Assembly (NCBI GenBank): GCA_013297625.1
Contig: JAAFHT010000013.1
Coordinates: 1-37,774, forward strand
Length of the DNA stretch: 37,774 nucleotides
DNA from: Actinomycetota bacterium
GTDB lineage: Bacteria; Actinomycetota; Actinomycetes; Actinomycetales; Microbacteriaceae
Reading direction: 5' to 3'
In this document: positions 17,915 through 24,120 of the stretch, piece after piece
Position numbering within the stretch: the first letter of the stretch is position 1
Layout: each line of letters opens with the position of its first letter
Made by a program: the position numbers and the translations under genes
The notes under the pieces: model-generated
Seen by the model: only the letters and a program-made list of their open reading frames with translations
What the model was told of the DNA's origin: nothing
The model's database searches: none

Positions 17915-20900
17915 GTGTCAAGCCAAGTGACCGGAGTCGGCCCTGACGGCAACGCCGCGGGCGAATTCGGAGCCAACGAGTGGCTCGTTGACGAACTGTA
18001 CGAGCAGTACAAGAACGACAAGAACGCGGTCGACCCTTCGTGGTGGCCCATTCTCGAGAAGTACCACCAGTCGACGGTCGCGGGCAGTGCGCCCGCCGCT
18101 GACGTCGCGCCCGCCGCAGCCGAGGCGGCTCCGGCCGCTGCGGCACCGTCGACCGGCAGTCACCCCGTCGCACGCACCACCTCGATGGCGCCCCAGCCCA
18201 CGCCCATTCCGGCGCAGGCTCCCGCGTCGGTCGCTCCCCCCACGCACGTTGACGCCGACGGCGACGGCCAGCTCGATGACATCGTCACGCCTCTCAAGGG
18301 CATGGCCAAGACACTGGCCACGAACATGGATGCGAGCCTCACGGTTCCGACCGCCACGAGCGTTCGCACGATTCCCGCGAAGTTGATGATCGATAATCGC
18401 ATCGTCATCAACAACCACCTCAAGCGCGCGCGCGGCGGCAAGGTCAGCTTCACGCACCTCATCGCGTGGGCCATGGTGCGCGCACTGCGTGAGTTCCCGA
18501 GCCAAAACGTGTTCTACGACGAAGTCGACGGCAAGCCCGTCGTCGTCACCCCCGCGCACGTCAACCTCGGCATCGCGATCGACCTGCCCAAGCCCGATGG
18601 CACGCGGTCGCTCATGGTTCCCGGAATCAAGAAGTGCGAAACCCTGGGCTTCGGCGACTTCATCACGGCCTACGAAGACGTCGTCAAGCGTGCGCGTGAC
18701 AACAAGCTCACGGCAACCGACTTTCAGGGCAACACCATCTCGCTCACCAACCCGGGCGGCATTGGCACGGTGCACTCGGTGCCGCGCCTCATGAAGGGCC
18801 AGGGCGCCATCATCGGCGCTGGTGCCCTCGAGTACCCGGCCGAGTTCCAGGGCATGTCGCAAGCGACTCTTGCCGACCTCGGCATTGGCAAGACCATCAC
18901 GCTCACGAGCACCTACGACCACCGCGTCATTCAGGGTGCCGGCTCGGGTGAGTTCTTGAAAAAGGTGCACGAGCTGCTCATCGGCGAGCGCCGCTTCTAC
19001 GAAGACATCTTCGCTGACCTGCGCATCCCGTACGACCCGATTCACTGGGCGCAAGACATTCACGTTGACCTGGCCGACCAGATCAACAAGACCGCGCGCG
19101 TGCAAGATCTCATCAACGCCTACCGCGTTCGTGGCCACCTCATGGCCGATGTTGACCCGCTCGAGTACCGCCAGCGCACCCACCCCGACCTCGACATTTC
19201 GAGCCACGGTCTGACGTTCTGGGATCTCGATCGCGAGTTTGTGACGGGCGGCTTCGGTGGCCGTCGCACGATGCTGCTGCGCGAGGTTCTCGGTGTTCTC
19301 CGTGACACGTACTGCCGCACCGTGGGCATCGAGTACATGCACATTCAAGACCCGGAACAGCGCCGCTGGTTCCAGGAGCGCTTGGAGAAGCCGTACGAGA
19401 AGCCGACGCACGACGAGCAAATGCGCATTCTCGGCAAGCTCAACCAGGCCGAGGCCTTCGAGACCTTCTTGCAGACCAAGTACGTCGGCCAGAAGCGCTT
19501 CAGCCTTGAGGGTGGCGAGTCGGTCATTGCCTTGCTCGACGAGATCTTGCAGGGTGCCGCCGATCACGGGCTCGACGAGGTAGCCATCGGTATGGCGCAC
19601 CGCGGCCGCCTCAATGTGCTCGCCAACACGGCAGGAAAGACCTACGGTCAGATCTTCCGTGAGTTCGAGGGAACCCAAGACCCAAAGTCGGTGCAGGGTT
19701 CGGGCGACGTCAAGTACCACTTGGGTACCGAGGGCACCTTCACGGCCATGTCGGGTCAGAAGGTGGCCGTCTCGCTCGCCGCCAACCCCTCGCACCTCGA
19801 GGCCGTCAACGGCGTGCTCGAAGGCATTGTGCGCGCAAAGCAAGATCGCAAGCCGATCGGAACCTTCAGCGTCTTGCCGGTACTCGTGCACGGTGACGCG
19901 GCAATGGCAGGTCAAGGCATCGTGGTCGAGACCCTGCAGCTCAGCCAACTGCGCGGCTACCGAACGGGCGGCACCATTCACGTCGTCATCAACAACCAGG
20001 TGGGCTTCACCACGCCCCCCGGTGAAGGTCGCACGTCGACCTACTCGACCGATGTCGCCAAGACCATTCAGGCACCGATCTTCCACGTCAACGGCGACGA
20101 CCCCGAGGCCGTCGTGCGCGTGGCCGAGCTCGCCTTTGCCTACCGCCAGCAGTTCAAGCGTGACGTCGTCATCGACCTCGTCTGCTACCGCCGCCGTGGC
20201 CACAACGAGGGCGACGACCCGTCGATGACGCAGCCGCTCATGTACAACCTCATCGAGGCCAAGCGCTCGGTACGCACGCTGTACACCGAGGCTCTCGTTG
20301 GCCGTGGCGACATCACCGAAGAAGAGTTCGAGGCCGCGCACCGCGACTTCCAAGACCGCCTCGAGGTGGCATTCGCCGAGACCCACGCCGCGCAGACGGG
20401 CTCGCTGCCCGTCGTCACGGGTGGGCCCGCGACCGAGCACGACGACCTGGCCGGAGAACCCGAGTCGACCGGCGTCGACGTGGCGGTCATCCAGCACATT
20501 GGTGACGCACACGACAACCCGCCCGCCGGGTTCACCGTGCACACCAAGTTGCATGCGATGCTCAAGAAGCGCGTCGAGATGAGTCGGCAAGGCCAGATCG
20601 ACTGGGGCTTCGGCGAACTTCTCGCATTGGGTTCGCTGCTCATGGAAGGCACTCCCGTGCGAATGGCCGGGCAAGACTCGCGTCGCGGCACCTTCGTGCA
20701 GCGTCACGCGGTGCTGCACGACCGCGTGAACGGCCAGGAGTGGCTGCCCCTCGCCAACCTCAGCGACAACCAGGCTCGTTTCTGGATCTATGACTCGCTG
20801 CTGAGCGAATACGCGGCCATGGGCTTCGAATACGGCTACTCGGTCGAGCGCCCCGACGCGCTCGTGCTGTGGGAGGCCCAGTTCGGCGACTTCGCCAACG

Positions 20901-21616
20901 GCGCCCAGACGATCATCGACGAGTTCATTTCGTCGGCCGAGCAAAAGTGGAACCAGCGCTCGAGCGTTGTGCTGCTGCTGCCGCACGGCTACGAGGGTCA
21001 GGGCCCCGACCACTCGTCGGCCCGCATCGAGCGGTTCTTGCAACTCGCGGCCGAAGACAACATGACAATCGCGCGCCCGTCGACTCCCGCGTCGTACTTC
21101 CACCTCTTGCGCCGTCAGGCCTATGCGCGCCCGCGTCGCCCGCTCGTGGTCTTCACGCCCAAGGCCATGCTGCGCTTGCGCGGTGCGACGAGCGAGGTCG
21201 CCGACTTCACGAGTGGCCGCTTCGAGCCCGTCATTGACGACGCCACGGTGACGGATGCCGGCGCCGTGCGCCGGGTGCTGCTGCACGCCGGCAAGATCCA
21301 CTACGACCTCGTGGCCGAAGTCGAGAAGCGCGGAACAACCGGGGTCGCCCTCGTGCGCCTCGAGCAGTTCCACCCGCTGCCCGAAGCCGAGCTGCGTGCG
21401 GCGCTCAGCCGGTACCCGAACGCCGAGGTCGTCTGGGTGCAAGACGAACCGGAGAACCAGGGCGCGTGGCCGTTCTTGGCGCTCGAGACGCAAAAGCGCG
21501 GCATGCCCGCGATGCGCGTGGTCTCGCGTCACGCCTCGGCATCGCCGGCTACTGGGTCAAGCAAGCGCAGCGCGCAAGAGCACGCCGACATCATGGATGC
21601 CGCGCTGAGCGACTAG
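17915..21616 (+). CDS. kgd: Multifunctional 2-oxoglutarate decarboxylase/dehydrogenase E1 with fused E2-like domain
   Basis: 1233 aa, the fused actinobacterial form (SucA/OdhA/Kgd): a thiamine-diphosphate enzyme of the TCA cycle oxidising or decarboxylating 2-oxoglutarate. Order: short E1 N-terminal segment with [17 protein letters not shown] (18-36); Ala/Pro linker (about 55-105); succinyltransferase-like E2 core (about 120-350) with its active-site TYDHRVIQG (332-340) but no lipoyl domain; E1 domain (370 onward) with [15 protein letters not shown], then [10 protein letters not shown] and INNQVGFTT (about 660-695, ThDP/Mg2+ binding); transketolase-like C-terminal part with [23 protein letters not shown] 17915 is chosen; upstream in-frame GTGs run into a stop. 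A strong terminator follows the TAG. Confidence 0.95.
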
Positions 21617-21630
21617 ACACCGCCCAGCTA

Positions 21631-21672
21631 ACGACGACGGCCCGCCCCGATTCGGGGGCGGGCCGTCGTCGT
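21631..21672. terminator. Bidirectional terminator between kgd and rsrA
   Basis: Perfect 18-bp inverted repeat (21631-21648 with 21655-21672), very GC-rich, with a 6-nt loop GATTCG, centred between the convergent kgd stop (21616) and rsrA stop (21684). Confidence 0.85.
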
Positions 21673-21683
21673 ATGCGCGAGTA

Positions 21684-21923
21684 TCAGCTCTTCTCGAGCT
21701 GAGCGAGCGAACCCACGATCATGTCGCGAAGCTGATCAGGGGCCTTTTCTTGGCAGGCCTCTTTCACTTTGGTGGTCAAGGTGATGCCCACGAGGTGCTC
21801 GGCCGAGCAGTGGTCGCAGTTCGCAAGGTGCTCGCGAATGTCAGCGCACTGTTCTGCGCTGAGCTCGTTGTGCAGAAACTCCTCGAGCTCTTCCATGGCT
21901 TTGTTGCAGCCGCAGTCGGTCAT
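21684..21923 (-). CDS. rsrA: RsrA-type zinc-binding anti-sigma factor
   Basis: 79 aa cytoplasmic anti-sigma factor of the ZAS family. The motif HX3CX2C is H32-x3-C36-x2-C39 ([10 protein letters not shown]), with extra cysteines at C4, C6, C26 and C57. In the Streptomyces and mycobacterial homologues (RsrA, RshA) oxidation of such thiols ejects zinc and frees the sigma factor. It is shorter than S. coelicolor RsrA (105 aa), mainly at the C-terminus. The ATG overlaps the sigR stop (ATGA), so the pair is translated in a fixed ratio. Confidence 0.92.
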
Positions 21924-22561
21924 TCGGCGCTCTCCTTCGTCGAACCGGCGGGTGCCGCAACGGTCATTCCGCGCTCGCGGGCGTAGTCGGCCAGCAGGTC
22001 TCGCAGCAATCGTCGGCCGCGGTGCAATCGGCTCATGACGGTGCCGACGGGGGTCTTCATAATGTCGGCGATCTCTTGGTAGGCGAAGCCCTCAACGTCG
22101 GCAAAGTAGACCGCGAGTCTGAAGTCTTCGGGAATCGACTGCAGGGCGTCTTTCACGGCGCTCGCTGGCATGCGGTCGATCGCCTCTGCTTCGGCAGAAC
22201 GAGTGGTCGATGACGTGGCCGACTCGGCACCGCCCAGCTGCCAATCTTCGAGGTCGTCGATGGTGCCTTGATAGGGGTCGCGTTGCTTCTTGCGGTACAC
22301 GTTGATGAACGTGTTCGTCAGAATCCGGTACAGCCACGCCTTGAGGTTGGTGCCCTGCTCGAACTGCGAGAAGGCCGAAAAAGCCTTGACGAAGGTTTCT
22401 TGAACGAGGTCAGCGGCATCGGCCGGGTTCTTCGTCATGCGCATGGCAGCGCCATAGAGCTGGTCCATGAAAGGCAGAGCCTGCTCTTGGAACAGTCGTC
22501 GACGCTCGGCGAGCTCGTCTGTCTCGGTCGGCGCGGCCGTGTTCGGCGTGGTGTCGGTCAT
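21920..22561 (-). CDS. sigR: ECF sigma factor SigR/SigH, thiol-oxidative-stress response
   Basis: 213 aa from ATG 22561. Region 2: [31 protein letters not shown] and [25 protein letters not shown], nearly diagnostic of the SigR/SigH group; region 4: [30 protein letters not shown]. RsrA follows with a 4-nt overlap. The frame continues upstream to ATG 22630 (good GAGGG ribosome-binding site, +23 aa) and ATG 22666 (+35 aa). A housekeeping-type -10 (TAGACT) sits just before ATG 22561, whereas a SigR-type promoter lies upstream of both longer starts, so short and long forms are both expected. The short form is annotated here. Confidence 0.92.
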
Positions 22562-22569
22562 CACGCCGG

Positions 22570-22575
22570 AGTCTA
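22570..22575 (-). promoter_or_regulatory. sigR: sigR proximal promoter -10 (housekeeping type, near-leaderless)
   Basis: TAGACT on the minus strand; predicted start 22563, two bases before ATG 22561. It lies inside the longer sigR frame and would yield only the short protein. Confidence 0.5.
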
Positions 22576-22693
22576 GCGAGCGCACCAGAAAGGCCGGTGT
22601 GGCGGCTCGGTCGAGCACGAGCGTTGACATGCGAATCCCTCGTTGTTGTGTCTCGGTGGTCGGCATCGGAGCACCGTGCCGGTGCAGTGCCGA

Positions 22694-22699
22694 TACCCT
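22694..22699 (+). promoter_or_regulatory. aroA: -10 element of aroA, near-leaderless
   Basis: TACCCT with predicted start 22706, two bases before ATG 22708. It overlaps the initiation region of the divergent SigR-dependent promoter, so the two probably compete for polymerase. Confidence 0.45.
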
Positions 22700-22702
22700 G
22701 AT

Positions 22703-22728
22703 AACCGATGCAGGTCTTCACATATTCC
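22703..22728 (-). promoter_or_regulatory. sigR: SigR/SigH-dependent autoregulatory promoter
   Basis: On the minus strand GGAAT (22728-22724), exactly 18 nt, then GTT (22705-22703): a perfect match to the SigR/SigH consensus GGAAT-N18-GTT. Transcription would start near 22695, 29 nt before ATG 22666 and 65 nt before ATG 22630. The -35 lies inside aroA codons 6-7 and the -10 abuts the aroA promoter. Confidence 0.85.
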
Positions 22729-24120
22729 GGAGCACGGTTCTCGCCGTATGGCGACGACGAGCGCCCTGGCACCTCCGATGCCCCCGACACCCCCGGTGAT
22801 TGGCTCGCCCCGCGCGCCACCGGCCCGCTCGCCGCGCGCGTGAGCCTGCCGGGTTCAAAGAGCCTGACGAACCGCGAGCTCGTGCTCTCAGCTCTCGCTG
22901 ATGGCCCGTCACTGCTGCGCCGCCCCCTGCACTCGCGTGACTCCATGCTCATGATCGAGGCGTTGCGCTCGCTCGGCGTGCACATTGACGAGGTTCCCGG
23001 TGACGGCGCCTATGGCCCTGACGTACGCATCACTCCCCCGGCCGAGCTCTCGGGAAGCACTGCGATCGACTGCGGGTTGGCCGGCACGGTCATGCGGTTC
23101 TTGCCGCCAGTGGCCGCGCTCGCCCTCGGGCCGGTCGCCTTCGACGGTGACGAAAGCGCCCGCCGTCGCCCCATGCGCACGACCGTCGATTCGTTGCGCG
23201 CGCTCGGCGTTGACGTCAACGACGACGGGCGCGGCGCTCTGCCGTTCAGCCTGTGGGGCACCGGTTCGGTGCGCGGCGGCGAGATCTCGATCGATGCCTC
23301 GGCCTCGAGCCAGTTTGTGTCGGGCCTTTTGCTCGCGGCTCCGCGATTCACCGAGGGGCTGGTGTTGCGCCACACAGGAGACCGCTTGCCCTCGATGCCG
23401 CACATTGAGATGACGATCGACGCCCTCGCCGCCCGCGGTGTCACCGTCGAGAGCCCCGAGCCGGGCGTCTGGGTCGTTCCCCCGGGCCCCATTGCGGGGC
23501 GCACGATCGACATCGAGCCCGATCTCTCGAACGCCGCTCCTTTTCTCGTTGCCGCGATCGTGTCGGGCGGTACGGTCGCCGTCGACGGATGGCCGCTCTC
23601 GACCACGCAGGTGGGCGCCGATCTCGAAACGCTGTTGCCACTCTTCGGCGCGCGCGTGCACCGCGATGGCGAGGCACTCGTGGTCGACGGCGGGCCGGGA
23701 CTGCTCGGCGGTGCGGTTGTGTCCGGCGTTGACCTCGACCTCTCAACGGGCGGCGAGCTCGCCCCCGCGATCGTTGCCCTCGCCGCCCTTGCGAGTTGCC
23801 CGAGCACGATCACGGGCATCGGCCACTTGCGCGGCCACGAGACCGATCGTCTCGCGGCTCTTGCCGCTGAGATCACCGCCCTTGGAGGCGCGGTCACCGA
23901 ACTCGACGAGGGCCTCGCGATCACGCCGCGCCCCCTGCACGGCGCGGCATGGCGCGCCTACGAAGACCACCGAATGGCCACTGCCGGAGCCATCATCGGG
24001 CTCGCGGTCGACGGCGTGCTCGTCGATGACATCGGCTCGACGGCCAAGACGCTGCCCCAGTTCGTCGAGCTCTGGAACTCCATGCTCGACCAAACCGAAT
24101 CGTCATCGAGCAATCCGTGA
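22708..24120 (+). CDS. aroA: 3-phosphoshikimate 1-carboxyvinyltransferase (EPSP synthase)
   Basis: 470 aa, sixth step of the shikimate pathway in the cytoplasm (shikimate-3-phosphate plus PEP). Motifs: [17 protein letters not shown] (about 48-64), [13 protein letters not shown] (PEP-site loop), [33 protein letters not shown] near the C-terminus. A non-core head of about 40 residues precedes the catalytic part; its first codons also contain the SigR promoter -35. ATG 22708 is supported by the adjacent TACCCT. The stop overlaps the rsgA start (GTGA), and rsgA overlaps hisN in the same way, forming aroA-rsgA-hisN. Confidence 0.95.

Follow-up and report, generated by a model that had tools for sequence, protein, structure and literature searches.

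The sigR–rsrA locus described here appears to carry two nested promoters, p2 and p1, which would specify a long and a (nearly) leaderless short form of SigR, respectively; judging from sequence comparison, we assign this reading a probability of about 0.82. The locus lies in a stretch of DNA of 37,774 nt (hereafter, the window), from a Microbacteriaceae genome whose nearest named relatives, among the matches listed, are Microcella. Profile searches in the window placed sigR and rsrA on the minus strand, divergent from aroA, with the following features.

22708..24120, plus strand: aroA (TIGR01356, 350.5 bits; cut-off 287.25)
22724..22728, minus strand: p2 -35 element GGAAT, within aroA codons 6-7
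22703..22705, minus strand: p2 -10 element GTT, 18 nt from GGAAT
22694..22699, plus strand: aroA -10 TACCCT, 8 nt before the aroA ATG, leaderless-type
22694..22698, minus strand: predicted p2 transcription start region, placed from the -10 position
22664..22666, minus strand: in-frame ATG with no clear Shine-Dalgarno (SD), not conserved, probably not a start
22637..22641, minus strand: GAGGG, SD of the long start, preceding ATG 22630
22562..22630, minus strand: 23-residue N-terminal extension of long SigR, in frame and open, with a motif found in many family loci
22570..22575, minus strand: p1 -10 element TAGACT, in a conserved TANNNT-N8-ATG arrangement
22561..22562, minus strand: predicted p1 transcription start, on the A of the ATG or the G preceding it (no leader or a 1-nt leader)
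21920..22561, minus strand: sigR short form, 213 aa, ECF sigma factor (TIGR02947)
21684..21923, minus strand: rsrA, zinc anti-sigma factor, its start overlapping the sigR stop; contains HLANCDHC (HxxxCxxC)

Translated with a 35-residue extension, sigR scored 309.1 bits against TIGR02947, above the cut-off of 251.55, and thus belongs to the SigR/SigH ECF sigma factors. The adjacent ORF 21923-21684 encodes an RsrA with the HxxxCxxC motif; it scored 57.3 bits against TIGR03988 (E 1.3e-15), under the cut-off of 62.5. Between the convergent ends of rsrA and of a 1233-aa ORF (17915-21616) lies a GC-rich inverted repeat with perfect 18-bp arms, a 6-nt loop and no T run (21631-21672), perhaps a two-way terminator.

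The promoter elements, their conservation, their spacing, the reading frame and the SD difference between the two starts are established at the sequence level. We infer the transcript ends, the sigma factor reading each promoter, the translation of both forms and the instability of the long one, in the following scheme. Since p2 matches the SigR consensus, free SigR would use it under thiol stress, and the p2 mRNA, with a leader bearing a SD, would be translated from ATG 22630 into a long SigR with 23 extra residues. p1 would be a housekeeping promoter whose -10 lies inside the extension codons, 8 nt before ATG 22561, and its mRNA, beginning at that ATG or one base earlier, would give only short SigR, by leaderless translation. 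With no SD at the short ATG, little short form is expected from p2 mRNA; a leaderless short start would thus leave p2 mRNA producing almost only the long form, with a cleaner split of the isoforms by promoter. By analogy with S. coelicolor, long SigR would be an unstable, transient form that Clp removes, and the standing sensor pool would consist of short SigR bound by RsrA. The initial annotation had already proposed two promoters, nested starts and promoter-chosen isoforms as in S. coelicolor; comparison bears out this outline, and what did not survive are its start at 22666 and its spacing of p1.

Promoters, starts and extension in Microbacteriaceae

We found a sigR match in 25/26 genomes of the genus set and in 236/249 genomes of the family set, from the best 30 of which loci were kept; further loci came from the best 80 named genomes, plus seven additional family loci. 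With p1 sought at in-frame ATGs or GTGs within the 320 nt preceding the sigR core, 137 of 138 family loci were anchored, 128 of them distinct, the window included (earlier anchorings covered 106/123 distinct loci, and 129/131 in the count of -10 variants). The one locus lost, L169, has TANNNT 8 nt before an ATG (hereafter N8-ATG) on inspection. Because the main family loci were the best matches to the window, we added a set of 20 family genomes that rank lower among the matches listed (the lower-ranked set). Two records, titled Stenotrophomonas maltophilia (L080) and Planococcus (L105), have sigR loci 84% and 78% identical to that of the window, and these assemblies are probably contaminated or mislabelled.

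TAGACT had been described as lying two bases before ATG 22561; the actual gap is eight (22569-22562), so that an mRNA can begin at or just before the ATG, and p1 is a leaderless-type promoter. TANNNT occurred exactly 8 nt before an in-frame ATG in all 128 distinct family loci, and in 20/20 of the lower-ranked set. The -10 variants in 129 loci were TAGACT (101), TAGAAT (14), TACACT (7), TAAGCT (3), TAGGCT (2) and TAGGAT (2). Considering in-frame ATGs up to 150 nt from the core, the spacing of 8 was found in 122/128 loci, with no other spacing in more than 3; at rsrA starts, used as a control, TANNNT was present in 0/128. A chance origin of the p1 -10 is ruled out by this spacing histogram together with the rsrA control. 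The base before the short ATG is G in 126/128 loci, and the position ahead of it is a pyrimidine in 128/128. Start mapping in mycobacteria has described TANNNT promoters without a -35, with the purine start usually flanked by a pyrimidine (PMC3898074). Taking as leaderless an mRNA whose transcription start is within 5 nt of the start codon, the TANNNT-N8-ATG geometry is consistent with leaderless transcripts. The usual gap between TANNNT and the transcription start in mycobacteria is one or two bases shorter than N8, so that p1 transcription may start at the G before the ATG and not at the A. The family logo showed neither an AT-rich block nor a -35 in the 45 nt before the p1 -10, nor did the window, and a standard sigma-70 scan missed p1, as expected for a -10-only promoter. 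Scanning 11 genus genomes for TAGACT-N8-ATGA returned 2 to 5 sites per genome.

At p2, GGAAT-N18-GTT was present at 22728-22703 on the minus strand, as claimed initially. GGAATN18GTT occurs once in the window, and at least one match arose in 32/100 shuffles of the window, so that the motif by itself proves nothing and its support comes from conservation. Loss of these elements in relatives, which the initial annotation had raised against its own proposal, was checked across Microbacteriaceae: GGAAY-N17..19-GTT was kept upstream of p1 in 127/128 distinct loci, with spacers of 18 nt in 73, 19 nt in 41 and 17 nt in 13, and base-shuffled upstream regions carried the pattern in 0.9%. In the one locus without it, L005, the upstream region is truncated where the contig stops. 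The published M. tuberculosis SigH consensus is GGAAYR-N17-18-GTT (PMC4803200). In the lower-ranked set p2 was found in 18/20 loci, and the same pattern gave no p2 in L341 and L342.

Two in-frame starts had been proposed for the long form, ATG 22666 (35 extra residues) and ATG 22630 (23 extra residues). Both are present and only the second is conserved: L004, the nearest relative (core 99.5% identical), has a Leu codon at the position of ATG 22666, for which no clear SD was seen by eye. We thus rejected ATG 22666 as a start and take the extension to be 23 residues from ATG 22630, not 35. In L003, which has the same sequence as the window, SD energy is -8.6 kcal/mol at the long start and -1.7 kcal/mol at the short one. 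Across the 128 family loci the mean was -10.9 kcal/mol for the best upstream start and -3.2 kcal/mol for the short ATG, with nulls of -6.1 and -4.5 kcal/mol, respectively; long starts were picked by best SD, which works in their favour, and the null is meant to allow for this. The SD of the long start was stronger by at least 3 kcal/mol in 125/128 loci.

The extension is in frame in the family loci. An in-frame stop within 60 nt before the short ATG was found in only 1/127 loci (L047, where the chosen long start is nearer to the short ATG than the stop is); stops in the other two frames of the same 60 nt were found in 123/127 and 20/127 loci, the former largely because that frame reads the TAG of the -10 as a stop. 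Extensions vary from 13 to 50 residues, with 21 different lengths, and the 8-nt gap is constant. Comparison of the extensions in the family loci revealed an in-frame, SD-led segment with a recurrent N-terminal motif (MFATLDR, MIATLER, MTATLAP, MTSAVLER; MSTLVLDR in the window). L[DE]R occurs near the N-terminus in 60/128 family extensions, against a shuffled mean of 0.9%, and the motif was found again in part of the lower-ranked loci (e.g., MPTSVLERP, MTASVLERP); the earlier description of the extension as unrelated-looking is thus only partly right, since its N-terminus is often shared within Microbacteriaceae. Differences in the extension numbered 80, 57 and 97 at codon positions 1, 2 and 3, and single changes in 26 pairs were 60 synonymous and 74 non-synonymous. 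These data suggest a modest protein-level constraint on the extension.

These observations bear on three other explanations. It could be that the extension is unused: p2 would serve autoregulation, its mRNA would be read from the short ATG, and the upstream frame would be open as a consequence of high G+C. In 107/127 loci there is indeed one further frame without a stop, as high G+C would allow, and the mean difference in SD energy comes partly from choosing the best start. However, an in-frame stop in a single locus despite 21 different lengths, SDs beyond the null at the long start and none at the short one, and an N-terminal motif that exceeds shuffles and recurs in lower-ranked loci all speak against this explanation, which we consider improbable.

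Both TAGACT and the complement of GGAAT are found within reading frames (L-D-S/V-D-W in the extension, Y-S in AroA), and could in principle be conserved only as codons of SigR' and AroA, rather than as promoters. We rejected this possibility as highly improbable: TA and T of the -10 are fixed in 128/128 loci, although the residues encoded there differ (D, H, E, G, S); the NTA codons that the -10 forces are rare in the sigR core (36/23,040, versus 128/128 at the -10); and, of 44 other families, 28 also have N8-ATG although their extension residues are dissimilar. Finally, the short form may begin at GTG 22564 instead of ATG 22561, or the p1 mRNA may carry a short leader. The window and many relatives do have a GTG 5 nt downstream of TAGACT, but many other relatives lack it, while N8-ATG is kept in 128/128. 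Five nt is short for the distance from a -10 to a transcription start, and we find this option quite improbable. Nested promoters that select between a long and a nearly leaderless short SigR are the reading we retain.

The divergent aroA gene and other SigR-type sites

The complement of GGAAT falls within aroA codons 6-7 (aroA ATG at 22708), as the initial annotation stated, and the first 21 bases of aroA contain the p2 -35 and most of the spacer. The p2 -10 was said to abut the aroA -10; they are close, and 3 nt apart (22703-22705 and 22694-22699). aroA is divergent from sigR in 127/128 family loci. Its start could be placed in 120 of the 127 loci with aroA, via the last in-frame CAT near p2, a rule that favours starts close to p2; of these 120 loci, 119 have GGAAT inside aroA and 116 have it 18 nt from the aroA start codon (CAT), and TANNNT was found at N7-N9 before the aroA ATG in 116 (N8 in 82). 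With its TANNNT 8 nt before the ATG, aroA mRNA may be leaderless as well. The p2 -10 and the aroA -10 thus appear interlocked, in an arrangement conserved almost to the nucleotide in the family loci examined. Because of this conserved interlock, it is plausible that aroA transcription would fall under stress, by occlusion.

In the whole genome of the window, GGAATN18GTT gave 43 sites, and a reversed control pattern gave 1. We fetched 30 of the sites; eight were judged to lie before recognisable genes, and 22/30 had no recognised gene, so that many are probably chance matches. Four were checked by family search, and precede genes for a thioredoxin reductase (trxB), a ClgR-like regulator, an FMN reductase and a DUF4193 protein. 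The site of the ClgR-like regulator (L133, G000:C9:112-137) is about 120 nt before its gene, whose product scored 98.4 bits against NF041677, under the cut-off of 170. Other actinobacteria use ClgR to drive their clp genes, and a ClgR-like gene behind a SigR-type site would provide a circumstantial link between SigR and Clp. By eye, GGAATN18GTT was also seen before genes resembling cysK, sufB and those of a VOC-type protein and a luciferase-like oxidoreductase. The sites of a draft SigR regulon are L142, L135, L148, L140, L145, L138 and L150. Separately, at G000:C125:11608-11717 (L157-L160), four head-to-tail copies of GGAATTCGTCGCCCGAAGGGCGAGTT occur every 28 bp, the fourth one base off.

Known systems and families outside Microbacteriaceae

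In S. coelicolor, p1 gives a short, stable sigma-R, and the SigR-dependent p2 gives an unstable, N-terminally extended sigma-R' (Yoo 2016, PMC4921905; Feeney 2017, PMC5472188). The window shares with it, at the sequence level, a SigR-type and putatively autoregulatory p2 upstream, a SD-led in-frame start between p2 and p1, a candidate housekeeping p1 inside the extension, between the long and the short start, and the overlap of sigR and rsrA. The two differ in several respects. The extension has 23 residues in the window and 55 or 58 in S. coelicolor. The short start of S. coelicolor is a proven GTC in the SD-led layout AGGAGGTG-GGTCCG-GTC (PMC5472188), whereas the window has ATG 22561 in a leaderless position without a SD, and no GTC short start behind AGGAGGTG. 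The AT-rich block bound by WblC before the p1 -35 of S. coelicolor was not seen in the window or the family. Also unlike in S. coelicolor, p2 lies inside the divergent aroA.

Two other systems show partial likeness. M. tuberculosis sigE has three promoters, which choose between sigma isoforms, and the SigE-dependent one gives a leaderless mRNA; the logic is reversed, however, in that the leaderless mRNA encodes the main, longer form, and an internal SigH-dependent redox promoter gives two shorter isoforms (PMC10027907). C. glutamicum likewise has a SigH-RshA operon with several upstream promoters; those upstream of sigH are housekeeping-like, their starts having been mapped 22, 89 and 93 nt upstream of its start codon, and the SigH-dependent promoter serves rshA, not an extension-coding transcript (PMC3489674). 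Among the sigR/rsrA literature matches listed, Microbacteriaceae were unmentioned.

The comparison was also widened to 44 further families of the order and class, which supplied 146 loci. N8-ATG was found in 97/146 loci (28/44 families), and a SigR-type site in 138/146, the latter a raw count, the shuffled control covering the family set only; 137 of these loci were anchored, with N8-ATG in 89 and p2 in 129. The N8-ATG of L221 (TATCGT) may be a chance match. Spacing was single-peaked, with N8 in 84/137 loci and no other spacing in more than 2. The N-terminal motif, searched as [LM][DE][RAH] in the first 12 residues, was present in 10/94 extensions outside the family (shuffled mean 1.6, maximum 7), so that it recurs in some families only, which weakens the idea of a class-wide motif. 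In a quick tree of 168 sequences, 22 of them from Microbacteriaceae, the N8 label needs 13 changes, compared with 37.7 for shuffled labels, and well-supported branches force at least 6. The N8 trait is thus clustered, and has changed several times.

Among the 49 outside-family loci without N8-ATG, 7 have N8-GTG, and 23, from 11 families, have a purine-rich stretch followed by GTG-N6-GTC in frame, versus 1/97 of the loci with N8-ATG (examples of this SD-GTG-N6-GTC signature include L196, L200, L203, L207, L213, L216, L251, L256, L258, L264 and L266). Altogether, the 146 loci comprise 104 with N8-ATG or N8-GTG, 23 with a SD-led GTC and 19 with neither. GTC is the commonest Val codon in these sigR genes (183/313), and is therefore in itself weaker evidence than its position behind a SD. 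One family (f37) has N8-ATG in 0/7 loci, and is Streptomyces-like by the SD-GTG-N6-GTC signature. The Streptomyces paper states that evidence for GTC use is lacking in other genera, naming M. tuberculosis and C. glutamicum (PMC5472188).

The two designs suggest a broader possibility, which we consider doubtful: that class-wide, short SigR uses an unusual initiation, either at a leaderless ATG or, rarely, GTG (in the lineage of the window and many others) or at a SD-led GTC (in Streptomyces and about ten other families), the two designs being interchangeable and both controlled by IF3 or ribosome state, so that the translation mode too would set the ratio of sensor pool to stress form. In both designs the stress-induced long SigR would be SD-led with a normal start. 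In Streptomyces, repression of the GTC start by IF3 has been described (PMC5472188). Model leaderless mRNAs in E. coli are inhibited when IF3 is raised, although the reported effects are mixed and include enhancement at low IF3 (PMC9031893). A SigR-driven promoter has been reported for infC in Streptomyces; searching up to 850 nt before the IF3_C domain, we found a SigR-type site before infC in 0/15 genus loci (in the genome of the window, infC is cut by the contig end). The absence of such a site in these loci, the mixed reports on IF3 and the frequency of GTC as a Val codon weaken this idea.

Meaning of the nested layout

The nested layout is not peculiar to the genome of the window: all of the distinct family loci examined have it, as do loci of many other families. 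At the sequence level it represents a conserved two-promoter, two-start sigR, a variant of the sigma-R/sigma-R' scheme of Streptomyces in which the short start differs. It would extend a feature known in detail from Streptomyces to Microbacteriaceae and many other families, with a sharp, testable signature, namely a gap of exactly 8 nt between the -10 and the short ATG. If this holds, sigR/sigH genes of this kind would have two genuine starts in place of the single one that an annotation gives. The short N-terminal motif of the extension would be a candidate degron, and the leaderless and SD-led starts of one protein would make a natural pair for studying the mode of translation in a stress response.
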